Source: a virus
IMG/VR virus record: IMGVR_UViG_3300045999_005825
Location: 1-44,156 of that record
DNA: 44,156 bases
Strand: one strand, 5' to 3'
Translations under genes and position numbers: made by a program
Notes under the pieces: model-generated
Databases searched by the model: none
What the model saw: only the letters and a program-made list of their open reading frames with translations
What the model was told of the DNA's origin: nothing
Shown: positions 5,585 through 42,360 of the stretch, piece after piece
Numbering within the stretch: position 1 is the first letter of the stretch
Layout of the letters: each line of letters starts with the position of its first letter

Positions 5585-5767
5585 TCATGTGCGCTTGCGT
5601 GTTGACCCACTCTTTCTACGTGATCTCTTCCGGCCTGTCAAGTGTTGAACGGTGTCAACACCATCCCGCAACGCAGCCTCACGTTCCTCCCTCATCAGCG
5701 CCTGTAGCTCCTGGTAGCCAGGCGCATCAGGAACCCCTGCGCTCCTCAAGATCTCCGTCCAGTTCAA
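5585..5767 (-). CDS. 60-aa hypothetical protein
   Basis: Starts with TTG at 5765-5767 overlapping the upstream stop (TTGA), so it is probably translationally coupled. The N-terminus 'NWTEILRSAGVPDAPGYQE' resembles many small phage proteins of the form 'W..iL...gvpe.PGY.e'. The C-terminus is strongly basic (GRKRSRRKSGSTRKRT). The regulatory motif at 5645-5658 and a TTGACA box fall inside this gene. Function unknown. Confidence 0.5.
   Translation of the reverse strand: MNWTEILRSAGVPDAPGYQELQALMREEREAALRDGVDTVQHLTGRKRSRRKSGSTRKRT
5613..5641 (-). promoter_or_regulatory. leftward sigma70-type promoter for HNH/terL operon
   Basis: On the minus strand TTGACA (5636-5641), a 17-bp spacer, then TAGAAA (5613-5618). 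It lies immediately after the 14-bp motif copy at 5645-5658 and 41 bp before the HNH start codon. Confidence 0.5.
5645..5658 (-). promoter_or_regulatory. TTGACACCRTTCAA motif, copy A
   Basis: Minus strand TTGACACCGTTCAA, followed by CACTTGAC. One of six copies of an imperfect 14-bp palindrome. This copy sits at the head of the leftward HNH/RAMP-like/terL unit and points along it. Confidence 0.6.
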
Positions 5768-7041: not shown

Positions 7042-7584
7042 ATGCCCACTCAAGTGACCGGCTCCGGCCTTCTCTCCTTAGTTGCCGACTTCGGCTCTGA
7101 GGCGCCCAAATCCCAGCTAGTGGCCGCGGCCGGCTACATCAGGCCTGATGGGAAGCTCGCTTGGACTTCCTTCTACGAAGCACTGCTAGAAGCCAAGGGG
7201 ATCAACCCCGTGGTCACCAAAGACGAAGACGAAGACTACGAAGCACTAAGCAGCGAGGCCCAAGGCCTCTACGACGAGATCCACGAGCGGATCGGTGAAA
7301 AGTGGGATCACGCTGATCTGATGGAGATGCTCGGCAAGGTGCAAGACCTTGGCATCGAAACCGCTGATCAATTCGCCGATGCCCTGAGCTTCGTGGCTGA
7401 CGATCCCTGGCACTGGCAGCGGGACTTCGTGGAGAGCCTCCTAGAAGACAACTTCACCAACGATGCAGGGCTGTACAGCTGGGTTGTGATCGATCACGAA
7501 GCGACGTGGGAAACCGCCCTGCGATACAAATACAGCGAGATCGAATTCGATGGATCGGTTTACGTGTTCAGCAGCAACTTCTAG
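7042..7584 (+). CDS. cyAbrB-N / ArdA-like early protein
   Basis: 180 aa, acidic. Residues 10-53 (SQLVAAAGYIRPDGKLAWTS, then FYEALLEAKG) resemble the N-terminal domain of cyanobacterial AbrB regulators. The remainder, with an acidic helical middle (about 65-145) and C-terminus VVIDHEATWETAL...YVFSSNF, resembles ArdA-type antirestriction proteins (DNA mimics that end in an 'iDyea..y.vF' segment). It is the first gene of the rightward early operon, where T7 also carries its antirestriction gene 0.3, so inhibition of host restriction is a reasonable guess. No Shine-Dalgarno; the start is preceded by GTGAACCTTGCA as in the clamp-like gene. Both domain assignments are inference. Confidence 0.5.
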   Translation: MPTQVTGSGLLSLVADFGSEAPKSQLVAAAGYIRPDGKLAWTSFYEALLEAKGINPVVTKDEDEDYEALSSEAQGLYDEIHERIGEKWDHADLMEMLGKVQDLGIETADQFADALSFVADDPWHWQRDFVESLLEDNFTNDAGLYSWVVIDHEATWETALRYKYSEIEFDGSVYVFSSNF

Positions 7585-7634
7585 CGGCCTCTCCTTGCCA
7601 CCGTTCTGCTGTTGAGCGGTGGCACTATCCGGAA

Positions 7635-7674
7635 GCTCCCACCAAGGCCCTACGGGGCCTTGCTAGGGGCCTCA
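7635..7674 (+). repeat. early intergenic repeat, copy 1 (diverged)
   Basis: Related to the copies at 8431 and 8757: GCTCC..., AGGCCCTACGGGGCCTT, TAGGGGCCTCA. It forms an AAGGCCC/GGGCCTT hairpin with a TACG loop. It lies between the stop of the 180-aa gene and the start of the clamp-like gene. Confidence 0.65.
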
Positions 7675-7707
7675 CAACAGCCCCAGCGTGAACCTTGCAT
7701 CTCAACC

Positions 7708-8433
7708 ATGGCAACCACTGATCTCACTAACGCAACAGCCGAGCAGCTGCAGGCCCTGCAGATCGCTCAGTCCGATCCGGCGTGCACCGCAGTTCTTCCC
7801 TACTGGCCGGTGTGGGCTGCTGCGCAGTTCGCGTCAACCGATGAGTGCAAACAGCTGCTGCAGTTTGTGCATGTTTGGCGCGACGGCGACATGTTCCAAA
7901 TTGAGTCAACCGATGGGCACCGCGCCTTCCGGTATCGCTTCCCAGCTTGGGGCTCTGATTGCCTGCCCACACTGTGGCGCTTCCCGGATCAGGGCCTGCT
8001 GTTGCACGCCAAGGCCCTGCGCAAGGCGGTGAGCTACTGCAAGCTGCTCACCGTCACAAACGACATGCGGGCCGTCTTTCATGGCGGGAAGAAAGACTCA
8101 CTAGCTGAGCTCTCATCAGTCAACCTTGCCGGCCACTACAGCGTGAACACCGCTGCAGATTGCGGCAAGGTCGGCACTTTCCCGAACATCAATCAGCTCT
8201 GGCCGGAGAACTTCACTTGCGCTCCCGGCAAGTCTTGGGCATTTAACGCTCGCTATCTGAAGGAGTGGTGCGCCGTGGTGGAGAAGCTCTCCCATAACGG
8301 TGTGACGCGGACGCAAGGCAACGCCGCCACCACACCGTTCACGTTCAGCAGCAGCTATCAGCCGCGGATTGGGCAGCACTGCAGCGATGCGCAGCTAGAG
8401 CTCCTGCTGATGCCAGTTCTGCTGCGCGATTGA
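7708..8433 (+). CDS. two-domain sliding-clamp-like protein (DnaN domains II-III)
   Basis: 241 aa from the ATG at 7708; the frame is open to 7612 but those residues translate the intergenic repeat. Landmarks match domains II and III of the bacterial beta clamp in order: strand pair ending STDGHRA (67-73; family TDGHRL), 'GLLLHAKALRKAV' (96-108), FPNINQLWPE (158-167; family FPDY..v.P), FNARYLKEW (179-187; family FN..Y..d) and a C-terminus LLLMPVLLR (232-240; family y.vMPMRL). Domain I of the usual 366-aa clamp is missing, so a ring would need a trimer as in PCNA or T4 gp45. A clamp tethers DNA polymerase to DNA; this genome has no polymerase of its own, so the partner is presumably the host Pol III or its clamp loader. 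Flanked by repeats and preceded by GTGAACCTTGCA. Homology is by eye only. Confidence 0.6.
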   Translation: MATTDLTNATAEQLQALQIAQSDPACTAVLPYWPVWAAAQFASTDECKQLLQFVHVWRDGDMFQIESTDGHRAFRYRFPAWGSDCLPTLWRFPDQGLLLHAKALRKAVSYCKLLTVTNDMRAVFHGGKKDSLAELSSVNLAGHYSVNTAADCGKVGTFPNINQLWPENFTCAPGKSWAFNARYLKEWCAVVEKLSHNGVTRTQGNAATTPFTFSSSYQPRIGQHCSDAQLELLLMPVLLRD

Positions 8434-8474
8434 CGCTCCTACTGAGGCCCTGCGGGGCTTCTCTAGGGGCCTCA
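8431..8474 (+). repeat. early intergenic repeat, copy 2
   Basis: 44-bp element starting at the stop codon TGA of the clamp-like gene and 43/44 identical to 8757-8800. It contains GAGGCCCTGCGGGGC (GCCC-TGCG-GGGC stem) and a wider GAGGCCC...GGGGCCTC pairing. No T-run follows. Confidence 0.8.
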
Positions 8475-8498: not shown

Positions 8499-8759
8499 AT
8501 GGAACTCACAGAAGAACTCACAGCAGCACTCACAGAAGCCGAAAACGAAGGCCTGCCAGGCCTGCCGTATCGCTCACCTGTTCGCCTCGCCGCATGGATG
8601 TGCGAGCACGAAACCCAGCTGCTCACGATCCACAGGCTGTTTCAGGTGGCGAGCTACGACGCACAGCTTGAGGATGAAGAGCTAATCGAGCGAATCAAGG
8701 ATGGCGTTCACCTCTACTGCGAGGTGATGACTGGCTACCGGGAGCGGTTCTGCCTCTGA
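8499..8759 (+). CDS. 86-aa acidic hypothetical protein
   Basis: Starts at the ATG 8499 (MELTEELTAALTEAENEG...), downstream of the repeat; the open frame to its left is repeat sequence. It is helical and acidic with 'LAAWMCEHETQLLTIHRLFQ' and a C-terminal 'EVMTGYRERFCL'. It is an early gene between two copies of the 44-bp repeat, whose second copy begins at this gene's stop codon. No family recognised. Confidence 0.6.
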   Translation: MELTEELTAALTEAENEGLPGLPYRSPVRLAAWMCEHETQLLTIHRLFQVASYDAQLEDEELIERIKDGVHLYCEVMTGYRERFCL

Positions 8760-8800
8760 CGCTCCTACTGAGGCCCTGCGGGGCTTCTCTAGGAGCCTCA
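8757..8800 (+). repeat. early intergenic repeat, copy 3
   Basis: One mismatch to 8431-8474 and again beginning at a TGA stop codon. The hairpin core AGGCCCTGCGGGGCTT is conserved. Confidence 0.8.
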
Positions 8801-13854: not shown

Positions 13855-14448
13855 GTGCCCAAGTTTGTGTCTCCCATCGGAGCCATGGTGTTCGGCAGCA
13901 TTGTCGAACCACGCGAGAATCCCAACAGCGGCAAGGTCGAGTGGAACCTCGGCTTTGTTCTCAGCTTGGAAGACTCCAACACCATCATGGAGAACATCGC
14001 AACAGCTGTTGCTGCAAAGCGTGCCGCCAATCCCAAGTTTCCTCAGACCGACGACAAGCTGAAGTTCCCCTACCGCCCCTCGCAGCGCCGCAACGAGGAG
14101 GGCGAGAAGGAAATGGACCCCGACAACCTGCTCTGGAACTTCAAGCGCAACGCCACCTACCAGACCAAGACCGGAGAGATCAAGCAGAACAATCCCCCTG
14201 CTCTGTACGACAGCCTCGGCCGCCTTGTCACCGGCACTATTGACCGCGTGCCCTCCGGCACCACGGGCAAGGTGGTCTACGAAATCTACGTGTACGACAT
14301 GCCCGGTGCCAAGGGCGTGTCCCTGCAGATCGTTGGCTTCCAGATCGCAGAGATGAAGAAGATTGAGACTGACCTGGCACCTATCGAAGGTGGCTGGGTG
14401 CCGGACGAGATCGACGACATTGCCGCTGCCCTAGCCGCCGATGCTTGA
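13855..14448 (+). CDS. ssb: ssDNA-binding protein (T7 gp2.5-like)
   Basis: 197 aa with a GTG start behind a perfect AGGAG. OB-fold-type protein with a beta-rich core and an acidic C-terminal tail (EGGWVPDEIDDIAAALAADA). The tail lacks the terminal aromatic residue important in T7 gp2.5. It coats single strands and interacts with replication proteins. Position directly after RNA polymerase and before endonuclease I is T7-like. It overlaps the next gene by 8 bp. Confidence 0.85.
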   Translation: MPKFVSPIGAMVFGSIVEPRENPNSGKVEWNLGFVLSLEDSNTIMENIATAVAAKRAANPKFPQTDDKLKFPYRPSQRRNEEGEKEMDPDNLLWNFKRNATYQTKTGEIKQNNPPALYDSLGRLVTGTIDRVPSGTTGKVVYEIYVYDMPGAKGVSLQIVGFQIAEMKKIETDLAPIEGGWVPDEIDDIAAALAADA

Positions 14449-14980
14449 CCGGTACAACCGGCGAGTACGCAGCAAGAACGACAAGGAGCGCCGCTCCAAG
14501 CTTGAAGATGAAGTGGAGCAAGCCCTGATTAACCAGGGCTACTCACCTGAGTACGAGAGCGAGCGGTTCTCCTACGTCTTGCATCGGAAGTACCGCCCCG
14601 ACTTCAAGGTGGGCAACGTGTATGTGGAGGTGAAGGGCTGGTGGCCACCGGCGGAACGATCCAAGTTCCTGGCGGTGATCTTGAACAACCCTGGCCTGCC
14701 GATCTTTGTGGCGCTGCAACGTCCCAACTTGACGTTGAACAAGCAAAGCAAGACCACCTACGCCGAGTGGTGTTCTCGGCATGGCGTTGCCTGGTGCCCC
14801 ATCCCAATCCCACCTGACTTCATGAAGCAATGGCAAGAGGGAGCGCGACCCACATTCCATGTCCCAACGAAGAATGTGGAAGCTCGGACGCAGCAACCGA
14901 GTACTCAGACGGTTCTATTTACTGCTTCTCCTGTCAACAACGATTCACCTCTGATGGACAACCTTGGAAACAGTCAATGA
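14441..14980 (+). CDS. endonuclease I / Holliday-junction resolvase (T7 gp3-like)
   Basis: 179 aa. Catalytic PD-(D/E)xK set: E22 or E25, D54 (YRPDF), E63 and K65 (VEVKG), and a T7-like tail segment 'TTYAEWCSRHGVAW'. It resolves branched DNA before packaging and degrades host DNA. The C-terminal 50 residues, Thr/Gln/Ser-rich and without homology to T7 gp3, are encoded in a 151-bp out-of-frame overlap with the zinc-finger end of the primase-helicase gene. Confidence 0.93.
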   Translation: MLDRYNRRVRSKNDKERRSKLEDEVEQALINQGYSPEYESERFSYVLHRKYRPDFKVGNVYVEVKGWWPPAERSKFLAVILNNPGLPIFVALQRPNLTLNKQSKTTYAEWCSRHGVAWCPIPIPPDFMKQWQEGARPTFHVPTKNVEARTQQPSTQTVLFTASPVNNDSPLMDNLGNSQ

Positions 14981-16506
14981 ACTCAACCGCAAAAAAGGCC
15001 TTTCAAGCCCTTCCACGCACTGATTCAGTCACCGCCAAAGCCAGCCTGTTAATCGGAAAAGCTGCCAGCATCCCCTCCCGAAAGATCACCGAGCGCACCT
15101 GTCGCTTGTTCGGCTACGACGTCTCGACTTACAGAGGACAGCCTGCGCAGATCGCCAACTACCGGGATGAGAACGGGCTGACCGTTGCCCAGCACATCCG
15201 GTATGGCGAGAAGCAGTTTGCCTGGGTCGGCCGAGAGAAGGGTCTCAAGATCCAGCTCTTCGGTCAGCACCTCGGCACCGATGGCACCCTCATCCTCACC
15301 GAGGGGGAGATCGATGCCATGTCGGTCTACGAGTGCTTGTACAAGCACCGCCACCAGAGCAAGTTTGTTGTTGCCTCGATTCCTGATGGAGCTCAAAGCG
15401 CTAAGGAGTACGCGAAGGCGGTTGATTCGCCCAAGAGCCAGCTCCGTTACATCCTGGGCTTCAAGCGGGTCGTCATCTTCATGGATACAGACGAGCCCGG
15501 CCGCAAGGCTGCTGCTGATCTGGCTGCACTTATCGGCCCTACTGCTGCTATCGCAGGAGGCTTCCCTTACAAGGACGCCAATGAGGCGTGGATGGCCGAT
15601 GACTACAACGCCATCCTTGAAGCCATCAACAACGCCAGGCGCCATCGGCCGGAGGCGATTGTCCACGCACCAGATCTCCTTGAGAAAGTCCTCAAGCCTG
15701 AGCACCGCTTTGGCTTGCCATACCCCTGGGCCGGGTGGAACCGGATGACCGAGGGCATGAAACCGGGGCAGCTGGTGATGGTGTCCGGGGGAACCGGGAT
15801 CGGGAAGAGCCTGTTCACCCGCAGCATCGCCTTGCATCTCTGCCGAGATCACAAGGTCAAGGTTGCCTACATCGGCCTTGAGGAAAGCTGCGAGACCAGC
15901 CTGGAGCGGATGCTGTCTGAACAGATGGGCGTTCCGCTTCACCTCGATAAGCCAGAGGAGAGGGCAGCTCGGGAGCCCGCAACCATTCGCTCAGCGATGG
16001 ACGCTTTCGCCAACAATCTGTTCTTACTGGACAAGTTTGGCAGTGATGACTTCGACTCTTTTGTTGCCACCGTTAAACATTATGTCCTGGGGGAGCAGTG
16101 CCAAGTTGTTGTCCTTGATCACTTCTCCTTGCTCGCGGATGGCATTGCCCTCAATGCTGATCAGCGCAGGGCTATTGATCGCTGCATCAAGGATCTCAAG
16201 ACGCTGTGCGTCGAGCTCAACTTTACGATGGTCGTCGTGTGTCACCTCTCCAGAAGCGGTGGTATTGGCCCATCTCACGAAGAAGGAGGCGAGCCAAGTC
16301 TTGCGGAACTTAGAGGGTCACACAGTCTGGCCCAAATCCCGGACTTCGTAGTCATGTTGCAGCGCAACCCCCGCGCTGAAGACAAGGAGGAAGCCAACAC
16401 CACTACCTGTTGGCTGAAGAAGAACCGGGTCAAGGGCGAGCTTGGCCCCATGTGCAAGCTCAAGTACCTGAGCAGCTTCTGTCGATTCCAGGAGATCGAT
16501 GCGTAG
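14830..16506 (+). CDS. primase-helicase (T7 gp4-like)
   Basis: 558 aa (T7 gp4A 566). N-terminal zinc ribbon with C11, C16, C32 and C35, then the TOPRIM primase with TEGEID (E158 region) and MDTDEPGRKA, then a RecA-type helicase with Walker A SGGTGIGKS (K326), 'IGLEES', Walker B VVVLDH, and 'VVVCHLSR' plus 'LRGSHSLAQ'. It unwinds DNA and makes primers at the fork. The ATG at 14830 must be the start because the zinc ribbon lies wholly inside the overlap with the endonuclease gene. Unusually, no DNA polymerase gene follows. Confidence 0.96.
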   Translation: MARGSATHIPCPNEECGSSDAATEYSDGSIYCFSCQQRFTSDGQPWKQSMNSTAKKAFQALPRTDSVTAKASLLIGKAASIPSRKITERTCRLFGYDVSTYRGQPAQIANYRDENGLTVAQHIRYGEKQFAWVGREKGLKIQLFGQHLGTDGTLILTEGEIDAMSVYECLYKHRHQSKFVVASIPDGAQSAKEYAKAVDSPKSQLRYILGFKRVVIFMDTDEPGRKAAADLAALIGPTAAIAGGFPYKDANEAWMADDYNAILEAINNARRHRPEAIVHAPDLLEKVLKPEHRFGLPYPWAGWNRMTEGMKPGQLVMVSGGTGIGKSLFTRSIALHLCRDHKVKVAYIGLEESCETSLERMLSEQMGVPLHLDKPEERAAREPATIRSAMDAFANNLFLLDKFGSDDFDSFVATVKHYVLGEQCQVVVLDHFSLLADGIALNADQRRAIDRCIKDLKTLCVELNFTMVVVCHLSRSGGIGPSHEEGGEPSLAELRGSHSLAQIPDFVVMLQRNPRAEDKEEANTTTCWLKKNRVKGELGPMCKLKYLSSFCRFQEIDA

Positions 16507-16729
16507 CTCAATCGTTAGTGCCGAGGGGTACAACCCCATCAACCGCGGCCGCACTTTTTCTGATGATCCTAAGCACCCACTATGGAAGATCCAGGTCAAG
16601 TTCCCAACAGCGAAGCCAATGGTGGAGCTGATCAAAGCTCCGACCAAACAGGCAGCGATCCAGTACGCGAAGACCAAGTACCCGGAGTCCGAAATCTCAT
16701 TGCTTACGGCTACTCCTGTGCGCCGCTAG
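16499..16729 (+). CDS. 76-aa hypothetical protein
   Basis: ATG at 16499 overlaps the primase-helicase stop by 8 bp. Small basic alpha/beta protein (GRTFSDDPKHPLWKIQVKFP, ending LLTATPVRR) with a helix 'APTKQAAIQYAKTKYPESEI'. It occupies the start of the interval where T7 has gene 5. No family recognised. Confidence 0.6.
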   Translation: MRSSIVSAEGYNPINRGRTFSDDPKHPLWKIQVKFPTAKPMVELIKAPTKQAAIQYAKTKYPESEISLLTATPVRR

Positions 16730-16929
16730 ACCCGGACACTGAGTACCGCATCTGGGGTTCATACATCAACTCGATGTGTGACCACGCCATTGAACACTTC
16801 AACAACGCACCCAACCCTGATTATGCCCAAACGTCGTTCGCCCAAGCCTTCTGGAACGGTTACGGAGTCGCAGCCGGAATCCTTAGAAACACCATCAGGA
16901 GCTATCCCGTTAATCCAAAGGTGCAATGA
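16582..16929 (+). CDS. hypothetical protein, start uncertain
   Basis: The open frame of 115 aa overlaps the previous gene for 148 bp. The part after about 16700 looks coding (YRIWGSYINSMCDHAIEHFN, then QAFWNGYGVAAGILRNTIRS); the first 40 residues are low-complexity and may not be translated. Alternative start: ATG at about 16772. The stop TGA overlaps a following ATG. Function unknown. Confidence 0.4.
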   Translation: MEDPGQVPNSEANGGADQSSDQTGSDPVREDQVPGVRNLIAYGYSCAPLDPDTEYRIWGSYINSMCDHAIEHFNNAPNPDYAQTSFAQAFWNGYGVAAGILRNTIRSYPVNPKVQ

Positions 16930-17113
16930 CGCCTACTGGTTTCCTGACTCGCGTTATGCGCTGTCTGATTCGGTGCGTATGGCGTCCGCCCTCAAGATCA
17001 TTGCCGACGAGGTGGATGAGTGGTCGGCGGAGTGCAAGGCTAAGGGGTCGGAGATCGTTGCCCTTGCTCTACATGGGGTGGCGGAACGGCTCAGAGATGC
17101 AACAAATGTCTAG
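16778..17113 (+). CDS. hypothetical protein, true start probably near 16970-16981
   Basis: The coding-like part is the C-terminal 60 residues: NDAYWFPDSRYALSDSVRMA, a helix 'LKIIADEVDEWSAECKAKGS' and a second helix 'VALALHGVAERLRDATNV'. Upstream residues translate the overlapping frame of the previous gene. The most likely starts are a GTG or ATG around 16974-16981. It ends in a short overlap with the next ATG. No function recognised. Confidence 0.4.
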   Translation: MTTPLNTSTTHPTLIMPKRRSPKPSGTVTESQPESLETPSGAIPLIQRCNDAYWFPDSRYALSDSVRMASALKIIADEVDEWSAECKAKGSEIVALALHGVAERLRDATNV

Positions 17114-17345
17114 TACCCCTTTCACCCCTGCGGTCGTGGAGGAGAGCTGGCTCAGCGACACCGTTCATGCACAGCACATCTCCAGGGATGGGGTGAGTGA
17201 TCTGTACATCGGTGGAGTCGGCAACAAGTCGATTGTCTTCTACAGCCTGCAAGACCTATCCCAATGGTTCATTGAGCATGGCATCGATGCTGATGATCCT
17301 GTCTGGCTGTACCTGGAACACCTTGCCAACGAGGAAACGAACTGA
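17106..17345 (+). CDS. 79-aa acidic hypothetical protein
   Basis: ATG at 17106 overlaps the preceding stop. MSSTPFTPAVVEESWLSDTV..., with beta segments 'DLYIGGVGNKSIVFYSLQ' and an acidic C-terminus (EHGIDADDPVWLYLEHLANE). The longer frame to 16926 is Arg-rich shadow sequence. Its stop overlaps the next start by one base. Function unknown. Confidence 0.55.
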   Translation: MSSTPFTPAVVEESWLSDTVHAQHISRDGVSDLYIGGVGNKSIVFYSLQDLSQWFIEHGIDADDPVWLYLEHLANEETN

Positions 17346-17605
17346 TGGGACTATCTGCAACAGGCCCTGACTGCCCCTCCTGCGGGGCATGGATCACCAA
17401 GGTGATCCTCACCAGGGCCAACACAGCCTGCGACGAGTTGATCAGGCGTCGCCACTGCCACTACTGCGATCACCGCTTTTACACCAGGCAGGTGAGAGAG
17501 GAGATCGTTGACGTGAAGTGGGTGCCTGGCGCCAACGGGAAGTCAACGATTCCCAAGGTGATCAAGGTCTATGACACACCACTCAAGGGGAGGGCTGCAG
17601 CGTGA
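17345..17605 (+). CDS. NrdR-like zinc-ribbon protein
   Basis: 86 aa. CPSC (residues 10-13) and CHYC (about 38-41) with 'DELIRRRHCHYCDHRFYTRQ' match the N-terminal zinc ribbon of NrdR, the repressor of ribonucleotide reductase genes (family 'IRRRReC..C..RFtTyE'). The ATP-cone that follows in NrdR is missing; instead there is a short basic tail. It could bind NrdR boxes in the host and derepress nucleotide synthesis or be a general DNA-binding element. Coupled to both neighbours. Confidence 0.65.
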   Translation: MGLSATGPDCPSCGAWITKVILTRANTACDELIRRRHCHYCDHRFYTRQVREEIVDVKWVPGANGKSTIPKVIKVYDTPLKGRAAA

Positions 17606-18441
17606 CCATCTTTCTGCTTGACGGCGACATGCTGTTGATGCGTGCCGCCACTGCCACAGAGGTAGAGGTGCAGCTGGGCGACGACGTATGGACGCGCCAT
17701 AGCGAGCTGCCCCAGGCCAGGGAGATGTACTGGCAACAGGTCGAGGCCTGGTGCGACCAGTTCGAGATCACGTTGGATGACGTGTGGCACTGCTTCACTG
17801 AAGCCAGTGCCTTCCGCAAGGAGATCTACCCCGGCTACAAGGCGAACCGGAAGAACAAGCCCAAGCCGATTGGGTACAAGCAGTTGAAGGCGGAGATCAT
17901 GGGGGAGCCGAACGCGTTCTGCTTCCACCAGATCGAGGCGGACGATCTCATCGGGATCTTCGCCACCATGCCGGAAGCGAAGGATGAGCGTGTCGTCATC
18001 GCGGCACGTGACAAAGACTTAATGCAAATCCCTGGCATCCACGTGTGGATGGATGAGGGGCAAGATGTGGAGGATCAAGATGGACTTGTGGTTCAACGCG
18101 TCAATGGCACCGTCATCCAGACCAATTCGCCAGAACACGCCGAGCGCTTCACGTACCAGCAATACCTATCGGGTGACTCGACCGATGGAATCCCAGGCTG
18201 CCCCGGTCTGGGACCCGTGGGAGCCGCACGACTCGTCAAGGAGTTCGACATCACGCAGCCTGTGGATTGTTGGGAAGCGGTTGTTCGGGCGTATGAGAAG
18301 GCACAGAGCAAGAAGAAACTTGATCTATACAACGCACCCGAGTACGCCACGCAGCAAGCGCGACTAGCTCGCATCCTGCGACATGGCGAGTATGACTTCA
18401 ACACCCACAAGGTCACGCTATGGAATCCCCCGACACGTTGA
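17602..18441 (+). CDS. exo: 5'-3' exonuclease (T7 gp6-like, FEN family)
   Basis: 279 aa. Metal-binding acidic residues occur in the usual order: LDGDML (8-ish), 'EIYPGYKANRKNKPKPIGY' arch helix, EADDLIG, AARDKDLMQ and the helix-hairpin-helix region 'GDSTDGIPGCPGLGPVGAAR'. It degrades host DNA and removes primers. In T7 the DNA polymerase gene lies immediately upstream of this gene; here the zinc ribbon gene does, overlapping by 4 bp. Confidence 0.93.
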   Translation: MTIFLLDGDMLLMRAATATEVEVQLGDDVWTRHSELPQAREMYWQQVEAWCDQFEITLDDVWHCFTEASAFRKEIYPGYKANRKNKPKPIGYKQLKAEIMGEPNAFCFHQIEADDLIGIFATMPEAKDERVVIAARDKDLMQIPGIHVWMDEGQDVEDQDGLVVQRVNGTVIQTNSPEHAERFTYQQYLSGDSTDGIPGCPGLGPVGAARLVKEFDITQPVDCWEAVVRAYEKAQSKKKLDLYNAPEYATQQARLARILRHGEYDFNTHKVTLWNPPTR

Positions 18442-33365: not shown

Positions 33366-36227
33366 CTAGTAACCACGACGAGCACGCTCGTACAAGGCGT
33401 CGATCTGTCCATCGATAGTTGATGCCTCGCTGGCGTTATTTGCCATTGCAGCGTTGCGGCTCCCCTCAAGCAGCATGTAACGCTCACGCAGGCTTGCGTT
33501 GCTTTCGATCACTCTGTTGTATGCAGCGTCGTAGTAGTCATTGATGATGTTGTCGAGGCCTTGCTCGATCTTGGTGCGAACGTCGATGAACGCAGCACCG
33601 CGCTTGTCTACATACGCCTGCACCTCGGGCCGATTGCGGTACGCCAGCACCGCCTGCCGCAACGTTTGACCGCCAATGCGGATCGTCGCCATCTCCTGGT
33701 TCAGCTCCTGCTGCTCACGCACCGTGACCTTCAGGCCCGAACGCGAGGGGCTCTTCTCTGTGTAGCTGCCCTTGATCTCGAAGATGGCCTGCCATGCAGC
33801 ATCAGCCTCACGCTTGCCGCGGGGCAGGAAAGGAATAGCCATCTGCAGCGGGTTCAACCCGCCGGGCCCCTCGCCTGGATAGGTGGGCACCGGCTCCCCT
33901 GTGATCTGGTCGATCAACAGTGGGGTAACTCCACCTGCTCCAGGAATCCGGTCGGTCAGCCTGGCAAAGATGCCTGTGCCGAACGTGTCCTCGTGGACGC
34001 GCATCACCTCGGCAAACGTCGCGCCCTGGTAGGCGTGCTTGTACGGGTCAACGATCTTGTCCACGTAGTTGAGCAGACCACCGAAGGGTGTCTGCGTTGC
34101 TGCGTAGTTCTGCAGCAGGCGTGCGCCCTTGGTGCCCAGCACGAGGTTCTTGTCGCTCAGCGTGTCCATCACATCGTTGATGCCACGCAGGAACGTCGCC
34201 TGGTACAAACCAGTGACCATGATTCCGGCCATGGCTGCCACCCATTCCTCCTGAGCGGCCTGCGGCACATAGGCGCTGTACTGCCCCATGTCTGCTGCCA
34301 TTCGCAGAACGCCAGCGACTGGCTCCCCGAAGCGGTCAAAGGGAATCTCCATGTCGCCCAGCCTCAGTACATAGGGGCGATTGCCAGCGCTCTCCCAAGC
34401 CTTTTGCGCAGCACTGCCACGACCGCCAGAGGACCAGCGACCAGGGCCGCCTCCAACAATCTGACCGTCCATGGCCATGCCATAGAACGCCGCGGCCACC
34501 GTGGTGGTGAAGGCAATCTGACCAGCTACCCGGAAGGTTTCACCGGGGTCCTTGAGTAGCTCCTGCTGAATAGCGATCACTGAGGCGGTGGGGTTGAACC
34601 CAGCACCGGCGATGGCCTTGCTGGCATTCATCACTGCCCCGAAGCCAGTGGACTCAACAAAGCCCTGCTTCAGGATGTTCAGCGGAGTGCGGACGAACGG
34701 AACGAAGGGCCGCAGGTATGGGGCTGTCTGCAGCAGGTTGTTGACCTTCTGCGCGATTGGATTGATCTCCTGGAACGTGGCGCGGTCAGCCTCGACCGAG
34801 ATGCCATTCATCAGGTTGTAAGCACTGTCGAGCTTGTACTTCTCCCAAAGCTCCGGCTTGTGCAGGTTGAACGCTGCATTGGCCTCCTTCTGGATGAAGG
34901 TCTCCAGTGCTGCCTTGTCCTTTAAGTCCACGCCTTCCCGAGCTGCACGTTGCACCGCCCGAGCCGCCACCTCGCCGCGAATGACTAAGTGTTTGGCGAA
35001 CTCGTCAGTTCCGAGCAGCGCCCTGGACGGCAAACGCAACACCTGCCCAAGGGTGTCCACCGTGTCCTTGAGGCCATCACTGACCTCAACCCCACGCCGC
35101 CCCAATAGCTCCTCCAGCTTCCCACCGGTGATCGCAGCATCAATGCCTGTCTCTGCACCGGCCTGGTACAGAGTTGTCTCCGTTCGGGCGGCGTGCCAGC
35201 CCAACTCCAGCGCATCGCGCCAAGCAACACGCATGGCAGACAACGCAGCACCAGCTTCAGTTGCTGCCTGCTCTGCCATCTGCCGGCCAGCCATGCCGGT
35301 GGCTGCATAAGCACTGGCTGCACCCAACTGCAGCATCGGACGGGTCACTGCCCAGACCACGCCAGCAGCGTTGGTGACAAAAGTGCCAGGCGCAGACAGC
35401 AGACCGTTGATGAACACCTCGGTCCAAGCGTTGCCTGCAATCTCCAAGCTCATCGATGACTTGGCGATCTTCAGGGGGTCATCGAGGAACTTGACCCGCT
35501 TTGCCAAGTTGATCAGCTCGTTGATGCCATCAACCTTTTGCTGACCGTCGCCTTGGAGCTTGGCGGCGATCTCCGTGAACTTGTCCTGATACTGGCCAAC
35601 GTTGCCTAGGCGATCCGCTGTTTCCTGCAAGAAGCGGTCTGCATCACGGGTGGCATTTGGAACTCCACGCCGGAGGGCTTGTGTACGCAGGCCACGGCCA
35701 TAGCTCTGATCCCAGCCGAGCACGTATCCGCCGAAGCGGGACAGGTGCTGCATCTGCTGGGCAAAGATCAACCCTTCGGTGGTTGCGTTCTGGCCAGCGT
35801 CAACCTGACGCAGGAAGTTTTCTCCTGCCTGCTTGATCGCTCCTGCCGTTGACTCCAGGTAGGTCTTGGTGACCGCTGCGGCGAGGCCTTCCTCTTCACC
35901 GCCCACCATGGCGGCCTTGTACACCGCATCTCTCGCCCCAGCCTTGGCAGCTTCTTCCGTTGCCTTCTTGTCAACGCGAAGCCAGCCCATCTTCCGGTAG
36001 TAAGCCGTCAGCTCGCTCCACTCCATCGGCAGCATTTGCTGCAGATGTTTCACCATCTTGCGAGTGGTTACTTCATCAAACCCCTCCCGCTGCTTGGTGT
36101 AGAGGCCTGATGCTTCCGCTGCACGTAGAGCGCCGACAAAGAACTCACCGCGATCAGCGGCTTCCGAACGTTCGATGAACCGCGGAGTTGCGTAGGGGCT
36201 GGGGTTGGCACATGCGACGCGGGCCAT
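33366..36227 (-). CDS. internal ejection protein (T7 gp16-like C-terminal part)
   Basis: 953 aa. Large helical virion protein; segments 'PYLRPFVPFVRTPLNILKQG' and 'GINDVMDTLSDKNLVLGTKG' are typical of the gp16-type ejection proteins of marine podoviruses, with hydrophobic stretches such as 'GNAWTEVFINGLLSAPGTFV' and 'IAFTTTVAAAFYGMAM'. Proteins of this class leave the capsid and form the conduit across the cell envelope. Overlaps the preceding gene by one base. A transglycosylase domain as in T7 gp16 is not visible here. Confidence 0.78.
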   Translation of the reverse strand: MARVACANPSPYATPRFIERSEAADRGEFFVGALRAAEASGLYTKQREGFDEVTTRKMVKHLQQMLPMEWSELTAYYRKMGWLRVDKKATEEAAKAGARDAVYKAAMVGGEEEGLAAAVTKTYLESTAGAIKQAGENFLRQVDAGQNATTEGLIFAQQMQHLSRFGGYVLGWDQSYGRGLRTQALRRGVPNATRDADRFLQETADRLGNVGQYQDKFTEIAAKLQGDGQQKVDGINELINLAKRVKFLDDPLKIAKSSMSLEIAGNAWTEVFINGLLSAPGTFVTNAAGVVWAVTRPMLQLGAASAYAATGMAGRQMAEQAATEAGAALSAMRVAWRDALELGWHAARTETTLYQAGAETGIDAAITGGKLEELLGRRGVEVSDGLKDTVDTLGQVLRLPSRALLGTDEFAKHLVIRGEVAARAVQRAAREGVDLKDKAALETFIQKEANAAFNLHKPELWEKYKLDSAYNLMNGISVEADRATFQEINPIAQKVNNLLQTAPYLRPFVPFVRTPLNILKQGFVESTGFGAVMNASKAIAGAGFNPTASVIAIQQELLKDPGETFRVAGQIAFTTTVAAAFYGMAMDGQIVGGGPGRWSSGGRGSAAQKAWESAGNRPYVLRLGDMEIPFDRFGEPVAGVLRMAADMGQYSAYVPQAAQEEWVAAMAGIMVTGLYQATFLRGINDVMDTLSDKNLVLGTKGARLLQNYAATQTPFGGLLNYVDKIVDPYKHAYQGATFAEVMRVHEDTFGTGIFARLTDRIPGAGGVTPLLIDQITGEPVPTYPGEGPGGLNPLQMAIPFLPRGKREADAAWQAIFEIKGSYTEKSPSRSGLKVTVREQQELNQEMATIRIGGQTLRQAVLAYRNRPEVQAYVDKRGAAFIDVRTKIEQGLDNIINDYYDAAYNRVIESNASLRERYMLLEGSRNAAMANNASEASTIDGQIDALYERARRGY

Positions 36228-39200
36228 CAGAGATCCTCACAATGCAGTCCACCGTTATCCAGGGTGGTTCTGGTGTCGTTGACAAGACCATCAACGAATC
36301 GCTGCGCTCTTGCCTGAGGCTCAAGCAGCTTCATTTCTGTGTCTAGTTTGTCGGCCAAGTTGCGCAATGCACGCAGCTTGGGGCTGCCTTTGATGTCGCC
36401 TGCTTCTTGCAGCACATCACGGATGCCGTTCTGCAAGGCAAGCATGTCGCCCTGAGACAGCTCAAACGTGCGCTTCTGTGGGCCTAGCTCGTTGATGTTG
36501 AAGAACGCACTCTCGCCGCGACGCGTCTTCCATGCCTCATCCAGCTTGCCATCCAGGCTGGGCAGGATGCCCTGAACGGCGCGGATCTGTGCATCAGTGA
36601 GCTTGACTTTGCCAACGATGTCGGAGTCGTACACCGGATTGCCGATGGTCACATTCATCATTTCGTCGGTTGCATCAGCTTCCATCTGCCGCGCCCTGGC
36701 AAGCACTGCATCGCGGTTCTGCTGTAGTTGCTGCTCAGCAAGTTGATCGGCTTGGCGCTTAGTGGTTGTGCGGCCAAGGAGTTCACCATTCTCATCAAAC
36801 ACTTCCCAGCCGCGGCCTATCTCAGCCTTGCGCACCTCAGGAACTGGAACGGTGTCAAGGGTTGTGCCCAGCATTTCGCGCACAACCGTCTGGTCATCCA
36901 TCAGCCCCTGCAGCCCTTGGGCATCTGCAGCGCTGAGCCGTAGCTCCTCGGCGGTGTCGAACTGGTTGAGGTTCTGACCAGCACGGATGGCTTCTTCCTG
37001 TGCCGCCACCGTGGCCTGATCAACCTTCAGCTCAGGCGGCATTGCAGCTTGCTGCGCTTCCCAGTTGTCGTAGGCATCACGAGCTTCCTTGGCGGCCAGG
37101 TTGTCCTGCACCTCGGGGCGCATCTGGGGGTTGCCGTTGACCAGCTCCTTGTTCCACAGCCACTCTTCGTAGCGAGTGGCCTCGTCGATCTTGCTGGCCT
37201 GATTGATAACCAGATCACCGCGGTCCAGATCGGCCGCGGCTTTCCGGTTGAATTTGACCGCCATGGTGTCCGGGTCAATCGATGCCCAGCCCTCGTTGAG
37301 CCCACGCTCATAGAGAAAGTTCATCCAGACCGAATCGGAGGCCGGCACCACGCCGTACCGGTTGGCAGCAGGACGGAAGTTGTTGAGGTACTCCAGGGCA
37401 TCAACCCTGGTGCGAGGCATCAACTGCCGGACCTGCTGCTGTAGCTCGGCCATGGAGCGCATGATTCCGTCAGGGCCCTCCTCGAAGGTCAGCTCCTGCG
37501 CCTCCATGAATGCCTTGTAGGCATCCCGCTCAAAGGCGTTACGGATCGTTTGCGGAGTAACGGTTGCCTCTGGCGGCCGGGGGCCAAGGTCAACAACCTG
37601 GGCTGGCTCGACAGCTGCAGCTGCCGGGAACTGAGCCATGCCTTGCGGGCCAGGCTGCACCGGCGCCAGCTCTCCAATCCCCTCCAGTCGGCGCAGTGAT
37701 TGCTGGACCTGTGGGTTGAGCTCCGCATCCGGCAGCCGGGCCTTCTCTTCCAGCCACGCCTTGTACGCCTGCAGGTCATCCGGCCCACCTTGGGTGGATG
37801 GAGCAGGCATCGCACCTTGCGCCGCAAACTGCTGCAGCGCCGGGTTGCCATCAGCCTGCGGCGGCATGAACTGCTCAGCCGGGGCCTTCTCCATCAGCCA
37901 TTGCTGGTAGAGCGGGTCTTCATTGAGCTGGCTGGCCAGGCCCTCCATCTGTGCCAACCGGTTCTGCACCGGACTGGCCATGTCAGCAGGCACGCCTTCT
38001 GCTGGAGGCATGGGCCGCTGATCAAATGGCACCATTGCGCCGCCCGGCTCCGTCTGCACCTGCCGAGCCTGCGCCTGCTGCATGTCCTGCAGGAACTGGT
38101 TCTTTGCCTCCTGCGAACGACGAGCTTGGTCAACCTGGAACTGCAGGTCGCTCATCGCGCCTGGCATCCGCACGCCAGACACTCGACCCTGGGCCACCAG
38201 GGTGCGGCCGATGCTGTCCCCGATCTCCTGGCTACTGGCGTTCAGCGCTTCAACAATCAGCCGGCGCTCGCCATCTCCCGCTGTACGGAAGTTCTTGGCG
38301 TACTTGTAGACGCGGTACTGGTCGATGATCCCGTTCAGTACCGGGGCCATAACCAGACCCTCCAGCATCTGCTTGGCCTTACGGGTCAGCGCACTGTCTT
38401 CCGCGTAGGTGGCGGTGGTATTGCCAATCCCCTGCAACCACGGGATCCCCGTGGACGAGAGCATGTCGCCGAACGTCTCGTCGAACTCGGCGTCTCCCTC
38501 GCCATAGACGTTGAACGCCGCAAAGGCATCCCATGCCAGGGCCTGACCAACAGTGCGGATGCGTGCGCCAGGCGTCCCTTTGCTGAGCTGGGTCCACGCC
38601 TTGGCTGACTGCCGCACGTCGTCCATCCAGCTCCCGACTTCGGGGACTGACTTGGCTACGTCCTGATAAGTCAAGGCCAACCAGTCATTGCGAATAGCCC
38701 GGCTTGCAGCCCGTTGTGCAGCCGTGCCCTTCTGGAAGGTCTTCTCGACTTGCCCTAATGCGGTGGCTGCATTGGTGACCTTCTTGGTATTGGCCAGGTC
38801 ATCCAACTTGGTCAACCAGTTACTGGCACCCGTGGCCACATCGGCCACGCCACCCAGCGCTTTGATGCTGCCTGCTGCACCAAGCGCCATGGCAGGCGCC
38901 TTGAGCGCCACCTTCGGCAGCGTCGTGACCATTGTTCCGAGACGGACCAAGTTGCTGACCGCCTGACCAGCCTGCGTCTCAGTCCGGAAGGTCTCGCGGC
39001 GCCACTGGGTCCAGGGGTTGTCGCTGTCGTCGAAGACGCTGATGTTTGGATCAGCCTCCCCAACGGCGACGATGTTGGCCGTCTGGCGAACTACATCCGC
39101 AACACCAGCGCCAAGGTCAAGGAAGTCGGTGCCAAGACCGACTGCAGCGTTGGCAGCGATCTTGCCCAGATCACCAAAGAACTGCCCAGCGTTCTGAGCA

Positions 39201-39400
39201 AACATGGGCCGCTGGTCGCCGCCCTGCTGCACTGCCATCTCGGCAGACCTGAGCTCATCCTTCTGCTGCTGCTCATACTCCCAGGCAGCCCTGCCGGCAT
39301 AGTCCAAACCCTGAGGAGGGGTTGAGACTGCAACAGACCCTCCTGGTTCAAGATCGTCCCAAACCCACTGCTGCTTTTGTGAGTCCCAGCGAGCAGCCAT
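36227..39400 (-). CDS. large internal virion protein
   Basis: 1057 aa. The start MAARWDSQKQQWVWDDLEPG is followed by a region with hydrophobic helices ('LVRLGTMVTTLPKVALKAPA'), then long Gln/Ala/Glu-rich helical stretches and Pro-rich linkers (about residues 420-600). Low cysteine content. Position between two other ejection proteins suggests it is part of the internal core. One-base overlaps on both sides indicate translational coupling of all three giant genes. Confidence 0.68.
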   Translation of the reverse strand: MAARWDSQKQQWVWDDLEPGGSVAVSTPPQGLDYAGRAAWEYEQQQKDELRSAEMAVQQGGDQRPMFAQNAGQFFGDLGKIAANAAVGLGTDFLDLGAGVADVVRQTANIVAVGEADPNISVFDDSDNPWTQWRRETFRTETQAGQAVSNLVRLGTMVTTLPKVALKAPAMALGAAGSIKALGGVADVATGASNWLTKLDDLANTKKVTNAATALGQVEKTFQKGTAAQRAASRAIRNDWLALTYQDVAKSVPEVGSWMDDVRQSAKAWTQLSKGTPGARIRTVGQALAWDAFAAFNVYGEGDAEFDETFGDMLSSTGIPWLQGIGNTTATYAEDSALTRKAKQMLEGLVMAPVLNGIIDQYRVYKYAKNFRTAGDGERRLIVEALNASSQEIGDSIGRTLVAQGRVSGVRMPGAMSDLQFQVDQARRSQEAKNQFLQDMQQAQARQVQTEPGGAMVPFDQRPMPPAEGVPADMASPVQNRLAQMEGLASQLNEDPLYQQWLMEKAPAEQFMPPQADGNPALQQFAAQGAMPAPSTQGGPDDLQAYKAWLEEKARLPDAELNPQVQQSLRRLEGIGELAPVQPGPQGMAQFPAAAAVEPAQVVDLGPRPPEATVTPQTIRNAFERDAYKAFMEAQELTFEEGPDGIMRSMAELQQQVRQLMPRTRVDALEYLNNFRPAANRYGVVPASDSVWMNFLYERGLNEGWASIDPDTMAVKFNRKAAADLDRGDLVINQASKIDEATRYEEWLWNKELVNGNPQMRPEVQDNLAAKEARDAYDNWEAQQAAMPPELKVDQATVAAQEEAIRAGQNLNQFDTAEELRLSAADAQGLQGLMDDQTVVREMLGTTLDTVPVPEVRKAEIGRGWEVFDENGELLGRTTTKRQADQLAEQQLQQNRDAVLARARQMEADATDEMMNVTIGNPVYDSDIVGKVKLTDAQIRAVQGILPSLDGKLDEAWKTRRGESAFFNINELGPQKRTFELSQGDMLALQNGIRDVLQEAGDIKGSPKLRALRNLADKLDTEMKLLEPQARAQRFVDGLVNDTRTTLDNGGLHCEDL

Positions 39401-42360
39401 CAGCCTCTCCTCCTGTAATCGAAAGTGCCGGCCCTGGATCTCTGGTCAGCCAGCAGACGGGCGTAGTTGTTGCCAAAGCCGCTCGCCTCCAGGCGACCGG
39501 TGGCTGGGTTGAAGAACGAATCAGCTCTGGCCTTGGCAATGGCCTCGATGGTCACGCCGGCCTGGATGATCCGAGGTAAGCGCTTCAGGAAGTCAGGCAG
39601 TGCTGCGGGTGCCTGTACCGCCAGATCCAACGCGTTGAACAGAAGGCGGTTGAACCCAACGCTGTTTTGCGGGATCCCCATGCGCTGGAGCAACGGAGTC
39701 ACCTTCACCGCGGTGTTGGTCAGAATCCCCATCCAGCGGCGATCACTGGTCTGAGGGGTGCCACCCTGCTGACCGGAAACGGTGCCGACGTTCAGCTTCC
39801 CGTTGCCAGGGTCGCGGTGCCCGAAGTACGCCTGGGTGTAACCACCGTCAGCAGTCCGGGTGCCTTCGTTGATGCCAATGGCCACCATGATCGGGTGCCG
39901 ATCACTGCTGATCGCCAACGGCACAGGAGCTGCTGGGGCTGACGCCACAACCTGAGGAAGCGCCGGAGTCTGTACAGACATGGGCCGCTCGTTCCTCCAG
40001 AGCGACGCCATGGCCGCCAGGTTCTCGGAGTTGATCACCAGATCAGCCAGGTTTGGCTTGGCCGCGGCAGGAGTCGGCGGAGCATCAGGAACTCCGGCCA
40101 ACACCGCCAGACCACCACCGACCACCTGCCGAGCCAGCTCTTGCTGGGGAGATTGCTGGCGAGCGGGTTGCGCCTGCTGCTGTTGAGGCTTGACCGCACC
40201 CTGACCAGACGAAGGCTTGGGTGCCTGGCGGGCAGCAGTTGGAGCAGCTGATGCGCCACCCAGGTCAATACCAACCTTGCTCAACAGTGACGACAGGCTG
40301 GCCAGGGCATTGCCCGGCTGAACCATGCCCAGACCAAAAGCAGACATGGCATCTGCAGGGATGCTGAGGGAGGACTGACCGGTTGTTCCCCTTGTCCGCT
40401 GTCCCTGCGTAAGGGGAATCTTCTGGATCATCTGACGCCAGTATCTCTGAGGATCCGGGTAAGCCTCGCCCTTGTCATTCTTGGCGGCCCCCATCCGATT
40501 CAAGAAATACTTGGTGACATTTTTGTAATCCATCGATACCCCTCTGGCCTTTGCCCCATTTATGACGCTTTGAGGAAAAATGCTAATTGTTTCGTATTTG
40601 CCCGGACCCAAACGGTTCATATTTGCCTGAACTTCATTCACTTCGTTCATGACGCGCTGGTTAAAGCTGAGCCCCTCCGGGACATCTTGCTTGACTCCCT
40701 TCATCCTGCTGTTGCGCAACGCCTCAAGCTCGTTTCGGAAAATGCCCAGAGCATCGTCTCTGCTGACAGGCTTTTCAGATCCGTTAATTCTTTCCTCCGT
40801 TTGCTTCGTCGCCTGAATGCGCAGCTTCCTTGCGTTCTCTGCGAGGAGAACTTTTGCTTCTTTGCCACGGAATTGAGGCTGATCCAGTTGCGCAATGGTT
40901 ATGTCAATAGCAGCCTGCTCGATCAAGTCATCGCTTTGGGACTTAGCCCACGCGGCATTTGACGCCGGCGAGCCACTATCTTCCTGCAAGTTCTGCAACA
41001 AGAGTTGCGCTTGTCGTTCAACGGGCAAGCCAGAACTCCGAATCCGTGACGTGATCTGGTCCCTGTTTCGGCCGGGGGTGTTCACCTCTTGGAGAAGGTC
41101 TAGGTACTGCTCTCCGCGATCTCCAGTGAGCTGCTGGCCAAAAGACTCGTATTGGTTGAACTGAGAAACAATTTCACGCAATGCGTCCGGGCTGTTTTGC
41201 CATTCGCCAGCCCTGGACTCAAGCTCTGCTCTCGCCGATGTGTCTCCCCTCAGCGCACGCACAAACAGACCGCCAACGCTCTTTAGCGCTTGCTTGCGCT
41301 CGTACTCCTCCTGCAGCGGCTTGAGTGTAGTTGCTCGATCAGAAATGTACGAGCGCAACGTCCGGCCAGCTGCATTGATCGGTTGGTCGAAAAGATCAAC
41401 AGGCGACGCGGTGCCCTCTCCCAAGATGATCCCGTCGTCGGCCCATGAGTCGATGTTTCGCAGAAGAGCGTCCGCCTTGTCAAAGTCGCCCCTGCCAGCG
41501 TAAAAATCGACCCTATCTGCAACGCTTAATGCAAACTGCTCGGCAAACTCAACCGATGTGTATATCCCCTCTTTTCCGTAATACTTTGCAAGATCTTGGA
41601 TGTATTTGCGTGATTGCCCTTTGAACTTGACTGCTCCTTCAATGTTCTGCTCCGCCAGCAGCTTTTCCTTGCCTGCTGTAAGTCCCTCAAGGTCAACCCC
41701 GATCTTCCGGCGATTTCGTGCGTTCTGCTCCTGGACTGTGTTAGCCGCAAGTCCCTCATAGCTCCTCCCTCTGATCGACGCCTCTTGTTGGGCAATCGCT
41801 GGCACCAAGGGCGTAACGTACTGCGGGGGCAGCGCCTTAAGCCCAGAACTCTCCATTGCGCTGTCGCGGATCCGCGTCCGTTCCAGAGCGATTTCTTCCT
41901 GGGTGCTCTGCGGATTCGTGAGAATCCGGCTGTTAGCGGTGTTGACGCTTACGCGCTGCACGAACTCAGCAGCATTGGCCTGCGCCAGAGCCTCGTTGGC
42001 TATGTCCTGAGCACGAGGGCTCATTGCCTTTACGGCGTCACGAGCCTTTTGGTCGCCACTGCGGTACAGCGTGGCAACATCCATGTTCGAGAACAGTTCA
42101 CCGACCTGCTTCTTCGCCTGCTGATCGGCGTAGGCGTTGTAGATCGGAGCAGCAGTCTTGGTGAACTGATCGAGAAAGCTTGCGACTTCTGCAAAGCCTT
42201 GGCCGGCGTTTCGCCCAGCGACAGCAGCATTGCGGTTATCGAGAAGCGGCCCTGAGGAGCCAAGACTGACGCGCAGATCCGGAGCACCCGACACCCGGTT
42301 GGGTGTTGCAGGCCGGAAGAAGGCGTTGACCTCGCTGGTTCCAGGGCGGCTGTAAGTCAT
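39400..42360 (-). CDS. internal virion protein with C-terminal peptidoglycan-hydrolase-like domain
   Basis: 986 aa. The N-terminal 650 residues are helical and gp15-like. A Gln/Pro/Ala-rich linker (about 690-790) precedes a C-terminal domain with 'AIGINEGTRTADGGYTQAYF' and 'GHRDPGNGKLNVGTVSGQQG' (about 820-870), a lysozyme-like pattern I associate with virion muramidases and cyanobacterial cell-wall hydrolases; the Glu of NEGT is the likely catalytic acid. It would open the cell wall during DNA entry. The middle (about 40500-41950) is richer in A+T than the rest, hinting at recombination. Confidence 0.72.
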   Translation of the reverse strand: MTYSRPGTSEVNAFFRPATPNRVSGAPDLRVSLGSSGPLLDNRNAAVAGRNAGQGFAEVASFLDQFTKTAAPIYNAYADQQAKKQVGELFSNMDVATLYRSGDQKARDAVKAMSPRAQDIANEALAQANAAEFVQRVSVNTANSRILTNPQSTQEEIALERTRIRDSAMESSGLKALPPQYVTPLVPAIAQQEASIRGRSYEGLAANTVQEQNARNRRKIGVDLEGLTAGKEKLLAEQNIEGAVKFKGQSRKYIQDLAKYYGKEGIYTSVEFAEQFALSVADRVDFYAGRGDFDKADALLRNIDSWADDGIILGEGTASPVDLFDQPINAAGRTLRSYISDRATTLKPLQEEYERKQALKSVGGLFVRALRGDTSARAELESRAGEWQNSPDALREIVSQFNQYESFGQQLTGDRGEQYLDLLQEVNTPGRNRDQITSRIRSSGLPVERQAQLLLQNLQEDSGSPASNAAWAKSQSDDLIEQAAIDITIAQLDQPQFRGKEAKVLLAENARKLRIQATKQTEERINGSEKPVSRDDALGIFRNELEALRNSRMKGVKQDVPEGLSFNQRVMNEVNEVQANMNRLGPGKYETISIFPQSVINGAKARGVSMDYKNVTKYFLNRMGAAKNDKGEAYPDPQRYWRQMIQKIPLTQGQRTRGTTGQSSLSIPADAMSAFGLGMVQPGNALASLSSLLSKVGIDLGGASAAPTAARQAPKPSSGQGAVKPQQQQAQPARQQSPQQELARQVVGGGLAVLAGVPDAPPTPAAAKPNLADLVINSENLAAMASLWRNERPMSVQTPALPQVVASAPAAPVPLAISSDRHPIMVAIGINEGTRTADGGYTQAYFGHRDPGNGKLNVGTVSGQQGGTPQTSDRRWMGILTNTAVKVTPLLQRMGIPQNSVGFNRLLFNALDLAVQAPAALPDFLKRLPRIIQAGVTIEAIAKARADSFFNPATGRLEASGFGNNYARLLADQRSRAGTFDYRRRG

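Follow-up and report, generated by a model that had tools for sequence, protein, structure and literature searches.

What purpose could a phage protein serve that resembles the sliding clamp DnaN and is too small for the known clamp ring? This question was raised by an early gene in a viral record of 44,156 bp, which was analysed over its whole length and is called the window here. The preliminary description of the 241-aa gene product had pointed to four landmarks (STDGHRA, FPNINQLWPE, FNARYLKEW, and LLLMPVLLR), all of which are present, exact and in order, and had proposed a shortened two-domain clamp of DnaN type. The product is referred to as mini-clamp in the following.

The mini-clamp gene is real and under purifying selection. 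Its product is 79, 71, 71, 65, and 53% identical to the proteins of five relatives, start and full length are kept in the relative with 79% identity, and dN/dS values of 0.12–0.23 were obtained in comparison with six relatives. The gene lies ahead of a MarR-like gene, an integrase gene and the RNA polymerase genes, so that the term "early", as used in the preliminary description, fits in the T7 sense. The coordinates of the gene, its parts and its neighbors are compiled in Table 1.

Table 1. Features of the mini-clamp gene and of its surroundings in the window.
Feature	Position	Strand	Remarks
Upstream early gene	7042-7584	+	Weak PHROG match to anti-restriction protein, E 0.0047
Leader with ACCTTGCA	7687-7707	+	Directly 5' of mini-clamp ATG; ACCTTGCA common to three more early sites
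CDS, mini-clamp (predicted ringless), 241 aa	7708-8433	+	ATG at 7708, TGA ending at 8433; ORF call, relatives, codon comparison
N-terminal extension, residues 1-26	7708-7785	+	Predicted helix 11-22; poorly conserved
DnaN domain II (units IIa and IIb), residues ~27-154	7786-8169	+	IIb helix one turn in model
STDGHRA, residues 67-73	7906-7926	+	Pocket subsite I; E. coli T172, G174, H175, R176, position 177
FPNINQLWPE, residues 158-167	8179-8208	+	Pocket; E. coli P242, 246, 247; Q and L as in cyanobacterial DnaN
Junction, unit IIIa absent	8209-8238	+	DnaN carries ~55 extra residues here (I272/L273, E298, E304 in E. coli)
DnaN domain III second half (IIIb), residues ~178-241	8239-8430	+	Model and alignments
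FNARYLKEW, residues 179-187	8242-8268	+	Pocket; E. coli N320, Y323
LLLMPVLLR, residues 232-240	8401-8427	+	Pocket; E. coli 360-365
44-nt GC-rich hairpin-like repeat	8431-8474		Begins at mini-clamp stop codon; further copies 7631-7674 and 8757-8800
Downstream early ORF, 86 aa	8499-8759	+	Without known family (family search)
Replication block	13855-18441	+	Four genes; no DNA polymerase detected among them or elsewhere
gp2.5-like SSB	13855-14448	+	Replication block
Endonuclease I	14441-14980	+	Replication block
Primase-helicase	14830-16506	+	Replication block
5'-3' exonuclease	17602-18441	+	Replication block

As a single query, the window mini-clamp gave no Pfam match, DnaN included. In PHROGs it matched PHROG 3007 (E 2.4e-8, residues 37-237), followed by a weak second match to PHROG 947 (DNA polymerase processivity factor). 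Searching the Protein Data Bank (PDB) with a family profile of 43 members revealed DnaN clamps alone among the top matches (best E 2.6e-7), whereas PCNA-type chains reached E values of 0.9–1.1. HHalign aligned the mini-clamp family with 12 DnaN sequences at a probability of 99.7% (E 3.5e-26) with a single long gap. The AlphaFold2 model generated from the family alignment (pLDDT 89.2, pTM 0.88) was superposed on DnaN with VIA-align, which placed mini-clamp residues 21-240 on DnaN residues ~120-377 with ~177 aligned positions (Z 11.7–13.9, mostly 3–4 Å rmsd, 172–186 residues), and Foldseek ranked DnaN clamps first and found short phage clamps in BFVD. Moreover, the coliphage form (Sf11 gp36) matched E. 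coli beta with an E value of 6e-13. A second AlphaFold2 model (pLDDT 93.7) was made of an IMG/VR copy that equals Sf11 gp36 at 100% identity (tblastn); it aligned with E. coli DnaN 126-366 over 165 of its 178 residues (33% identity, Z ~13.8). The preliminary description had named two outcomes that would speak against it, no DnaN match and no clamp fold; both were examined, and a DnaN match as well as the clamp fold was found. These results firmly establish that the window protein is a relative of the DnaN clamp, and its proposed nature as a shortened clamp of DnaN type is borne out by profile, model fold and Foldseek alike.

The mini-clamp comprises about one and a half domains, namely DnaN domain II and the C-terminal half of domain III (IIIb). 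Cyanobacterial DnaN and E. coli DnaN were aligned with 21 mini-clamps from cyano-, marine, entero-, Vibrio, Acinetobacter, Pseudoalteromonas, and Xanthomonas phages, and domain I as well as unit IIIa was missing in all 21. Residues 123-249 and 316-366 of E. coli DnaN are mostly covered by each mini-clamp, and just 7–13 mini-clamp residues align within 250-315; likewise, the Pfam domain III profile matched Sf11 gp36 at positions 69-121 of 121 only. The N-terminal extensions of the mini-clamps, which several coliphage relatives have in short form or not at all, bear no resemblance to domain I. Neither the window phage nor its relatives matched the Pfam domain I profile, with the three-domain phage S-H1 as positive control, and profile searches found neither a separate domain I gene nor a second clamp piece elsewhere in the window phage. 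None of eight dimer-interface positions (I78, R103, F106, L108, I272, L273, E298, and E304) has an aligned mini-clamp residue. Because domain I and IIIa are absent, the mini-clamp retains neither half of the DnaN dimer interface. The earlier notion of a two-domain clamp is thus correct for domain II, which is complete, but not for domain III, of which half is missing.

In DnaN each beta-alpha-beta unit bears a helix that faces the DNA, and in solved structures that of unit IIb is longer than in the mini-clamps. According to the DSSP lines of the AlphaFold2 models, from which secondary structure was taken, the window protein has helices in IIa and IIIb and a IIb helix of three residues, and this helix is absent in the Sf11 gp36 model. 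Judged by the models, its shortening or loss would reduce the IIb face while the pocket side is kept. With IIIa and domain I gone and the IIb helix reduced to one turn or absent, the previously suggested PCNA- or gp45-like trimer finds no support.

A review (PMC11139829) lists the residues that form the pocket in E. coli DnaN. Comparison with these residues revealed that the landmarks noted at the outset are the clamp-binding-motif (CBM) pocket, kept with host-type residues, and binding is predicted from this likeness. The window mini-clamp equals picocyanobacterial DnaN at 16 of the 18 pocket residues (~20% identity elsewhere), and Sf11 gp36 as well as a Dhillonvirus protein equals E. coli DnaN at 16 of 18 (27–29% elsewhere), in a comparison in which the landmark motifs anchor the alignment and DnaN pockets are conserved anyway. 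In every group the pocket sites showed lower entropy than the other sites, and none of 20,000 permutations was as low. Seven sites split cyanobacterial from E. coli DnaN. At these sites the window protein carries K, Q, L, T, L, V, and L, of which six are cyanobacterial and none is E. coli-type, and Sf11 gp36 carries R, R, V, T, V, M, and R, of which six are E. coli-type. Plain descent from a DnaN of the host lineage could produce the same pattern. In trees built on all columns each mini-clamp group leaned to the DnaN of its own host, whereas without the pocket columns the mini-clamps leaned to one another; neither one nor several origins of the mini-clamps was rejected (AU p 0.27 and 0.21).

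The closest GenBank protein, at 41% identity, is a "DNA polymerase III beta subunit" annotated in 2022 as ORF14 of Synechococcus phage S-SRP02 (PMC8790148), and short phage "beta subunits" such as gp20 (209 aa) of Burkholderia phage AH2 have been annotated for years (PMC3483164). In view of this homologue and of many annotated short phage clamps, the statement that no case was described in this phage group had been too strong. The missing half-domain, the host-like pocket and the function of mini-clamps were not found described in the open-access papers searched. The family is widespread; on the Sf11 branch, 296 GenBank records with a match and 308 matching stretches in viral contigs were counted. 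Members of the family are labelled "DNA pol III beta subunit", "RusA-like" or hypothetical, and "RusA-like Holliday junction resolvase" stands on DnaN-related mini-clamps in NC_054636.1, PQ850625.1, other GenBank/RefSeq records and PHROGs. The RusA identity carried by the label of PHROG 3007 was rejected as a label error: the window protein and its seven-member alignment gave no RusA Pfam match up to E 10, and the RusA-labelled Sf11 protein is itself DnaN-like (E 6e-13). A database label has thus spread to a clamp family. Patterns derived from the window protein, which reach close relatives only, detected no mini-clamps in bacterial genomes; none was found on plasmids, and a PADLOC run returned nothing. 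Three-domain clamps with cyanobacterial-like sequence occur in other phage sequences of our set (L002:18187-19236 and L032-L044); cyanophages may have acquired this complete DnaN in a separate event.

No gene for DNA polymerase A, B or C was found in the window phage, in four relatives of 41–44 kb (G001, G006, G007, and G009) or in S-SRP02, of which S-SRP02 is a complete record and the IMG/VR contigs are possibly incomplete. The contrast drawn earlier with the T7 polymerase and thioredoxin is not applicable, since no such polymerase gene is detectable in the window phage. The annotated "DNA polymerase I" of S-SRP02 is a 5'-3' exonuclease only, although the published tree was built on a gene called DNA polymerase. 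The T7-type primase-helicase profile matched in the window phage and G001 only, and gave no match in S-SRP02, G006, G007, G009, and G079; a clamp-loader gene of the delta-prime/gamma type (PF13177) was found neither in the window phage nor in its freshwater relatives. As a polymerase, a clamp loader and, in these five relatives, a primase-helicase match were not detectable, a phage partner polymerase for the mini-clamp appears to be lacking. Pol A is present in some marine relatives and in G013, and in Acinetobacter phage 4316 and Xanthomonas phage PhiXhv-1 the mini-clamp gene has a phage DNA polymerase I gene as its neighbor. The stretches viewed of Cedarrivervirus Sf11 and Murrayvirus IME_EC2 carry no annotation of a DNA polymerase. 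Krakvirus S39C11, the closest sequenced relative, is co-linear with the window phage and has the same replication block, and gave neither a pol A nor a mini-clamp match. Since mini-clamps occur both in phages that have a polymerase and in phages that lack one, and Krakvirus S39C11 does without a mini-clamp, they are better explained by an accessory role directed at host proteins than as a core part of replication. The mini-clamp gene of S-SRP02 occupies the equivalent place in its genome, and in a further relative (L097) a T7-type terminase lies upstream on the opposite strand and the ORF order is similar to that of the window. Judging by the likeness to S-SRP02 in the mini-clamp gene and in gene order, the window phage probably infects a cyanobacterium.

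Several repeats were observed in the window. All copies of ACCTTGCA (7025, 7692, 8818, and 9775) lie in the early region on the plus strand, 0–9 nt before an ATG; the copy count by itself has no significance. Two of the three copies of the 44-nt repeat start precisely with the stop codon of an early gene (0.03 expected by chance for the core), and these repeats may be terminators or mark the borders of gene cassettes. TGTTGAACGGTGTC occurs in four near-identical copies at 5643, 6110 (minus strand), 11134, and 13748 (minus strand) with 0.01 expected; one of them lies close to where the integrase gene ends, upstream of the RNA polymerase gene, and they are candidate att sites or phage promoters. 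Finally, two ORFs on the minus strand (36227-39400, 1057 aa, and 39400-42360, 986 aa) without PHROG match adjoin an internal-virion-protein-like ORF.

As the ring parts are lost and the pocket is kept, the mini-clamp probably grips the host replication machinery instead of encircling DNA. The reading that we prefer, and to which the sequences lead us to give about even weight for and against, is that of a ringless, DnaN-derived pocket module acting as an early diverter of host replication proteins. Such a protein would form no DnaN-type ring, and its pocket would compete with the host clamp for the CBM peptides of, among others, the host replicase alpha, the clamp-loader delta and Pol I. Encoded in an early, host-takeover-like region, it would most likely draw host replication proteins off the chromosome; in the version that we favor the captured proteins would be sequestered, but they might also be passed to phage DNA. 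The position ahead of the phage RNA polymerase gene is common to relatives and was counted for this reading. A beta variant that is monomeric owing to a broken interface binds delta ~50 times more tightly than dimeric beta does, but is unable to tether Pol III (PMC11139829); by analogy, a decoy would need just these properties. The suggestion of the preliminary description that the protein might recruit, or poison, the host replicase is, on this footing, the best functional guess. Several observations argue against a decoy. A mini-clamp beside the pol I gene, as in phages 4316 and PhiXhv-1, points to a replication cofactor more than to a poison, and full sequestration of the host replicase would harm a phage without polymerase of its own. 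Moreover, loss of IIIa should expose a hydrophobic IIIb face that could serve as an oligomer interface, and the likeness of the pocket could reflect the descent considered above, on which the trees are undecided.

Some of these observations suit a recruiter, or open-clamp processivity factor, better. In this rather unlikely alternative the module would bind the CBM of a host (or phage) polymerase and hold it on phage DNA through another phage protein or direct contact, working as a clamp without ring like herpesvirus UL42 or UL44; phages without polymerase could thereby use the host replicase. The mini-clamp is indeed carried by polymerase-less freshwater cyanophages, Sf11 and IME_EC2 lack an annotated polymerase in the stretches seen, and in the two phages just named a pol I gene lies next to the mini-clamp gene. 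Viral clamps without ring or loader are known as well (PMC9690074). The net charge of the mini-clamp, ~0 compared with -12 to -18 in host DnaN, is also in line with this alternative, but it is not strongly positive. Furthermore, the mini-clamp seems dispensable for such replication, as Krakvirus S39C11 has the same replication block, also without pol A, and gave no mini-clamp match; and in the window phage the gene is not part of the replication block. The patterns used detected no CBM in the phage pol A of relatives, and the search for CBMs in the proteins of the window phage that the preliminary description had proposed revealed no enrichment among the window ORFs (strict pattern, 2 observed and 2.05 expected from shuffles).

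A true ring, in which a homo-oligomer closes on DNA and slides, is improbable. Known clamps have 12 beta-alpha-beta units per ring as a rule, and four subunits of three units, among other possible numbers, would give 12; the model keeps the clamp fold, and the exposed edges of IIIb and IIb might pair. This has to be set against the loss of both halves of the known dimer interface, the IIb helix, which would line the channel but has shrunk to a single turn in the model of the window protein and is missing from that of Sf11 gp36, and the lack of a detected clamp-loader gene. We would be equally surprised if the mini-clamp proved to be a guard against host nucleases or repair, occupying the CBMs of host repair proteins such as RecB (QVEMEF), MutL or Pol IV instead of those of the replicase and so shielding phage DNA. 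The CBM of RecB binds the same clamp pocket (PMC13254535), and the neighboring upstream gene weakly matches an anti-restriction protein, but the RecB motif is known from E. coli and the support is indirect.

If the mini-clamp acts as a decoy or hijacking adaptor, it would stand for a class of replisome-targeting phage proteins that copy the clamp rather than bind it. Phage inhibitors of the clamp are known to bind it (e.g., Gp168 on the beta-clamp, PDB 7evp), and a copy of the pocket would be the converse strategy. It would also account for hundreds of phage "beta subunits" that are too small for the known ring, and it bears on the replication of T7-like phages without a DNA polymerase gene. 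That phages of widely different groups carry a host-matched, ringless copy of the pocket as a decoy or hijacking adaptor is a tentative generalization, which we doubt slightly more than we believe. Because close forms occur in the coliphages Bas77-Bas81 and in Shigella phage Sf11, the idea is testable at once in E. coli.

The window protein can be compared with several known systems. S-SRP02 ORF14 belongs to the same family and has the same architecture and early location, but is known by annotation alone, the accessible passages of PMC8790148 giving neither architecture nor pocket. The short clamps of PHROG 3007 (Sf11 gp36, Dhillonvirus, and IME_EC2) likewise consist of domain II and IIIb with the pocket; they differ in length (174–223 aa, several with little or no N-terminal extension) and in their proteobacterial-type pocket, and are labelled RusA-like, beta clamp or hypothetical. 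The three-domain phage clamps (S-H1, 349 aa, and L032-L044) share the DnaN family and the cyanobacterial-like pocket, but unlike the window protein they are complete, with domain I and IIIa. DnaN itself (PF00712/PF02767/PF02768; 366–390 aa) is homologous to the window protein in domain II and IIIb and has a near-identical pocket, whereas the window protein is without domain I, IIIa and the known dimer interface and has a reduced IIb helix. E. coli beta* is a shorter, UV-induced product of DnaN that comprises domains II and III. It resembles the window protein in having no domain I, but keeps the whole domain III. Herpesvirus UL42 and UL44 function without a closed ring (PMC9690074). Together with PCNA and T4 gp45 they have the clamp fold in common with the window protein, but they possess two complete domains, and in sequence the window protein appears to resemble DnaN rather than PCNA, gp45, UL42 or UL44.
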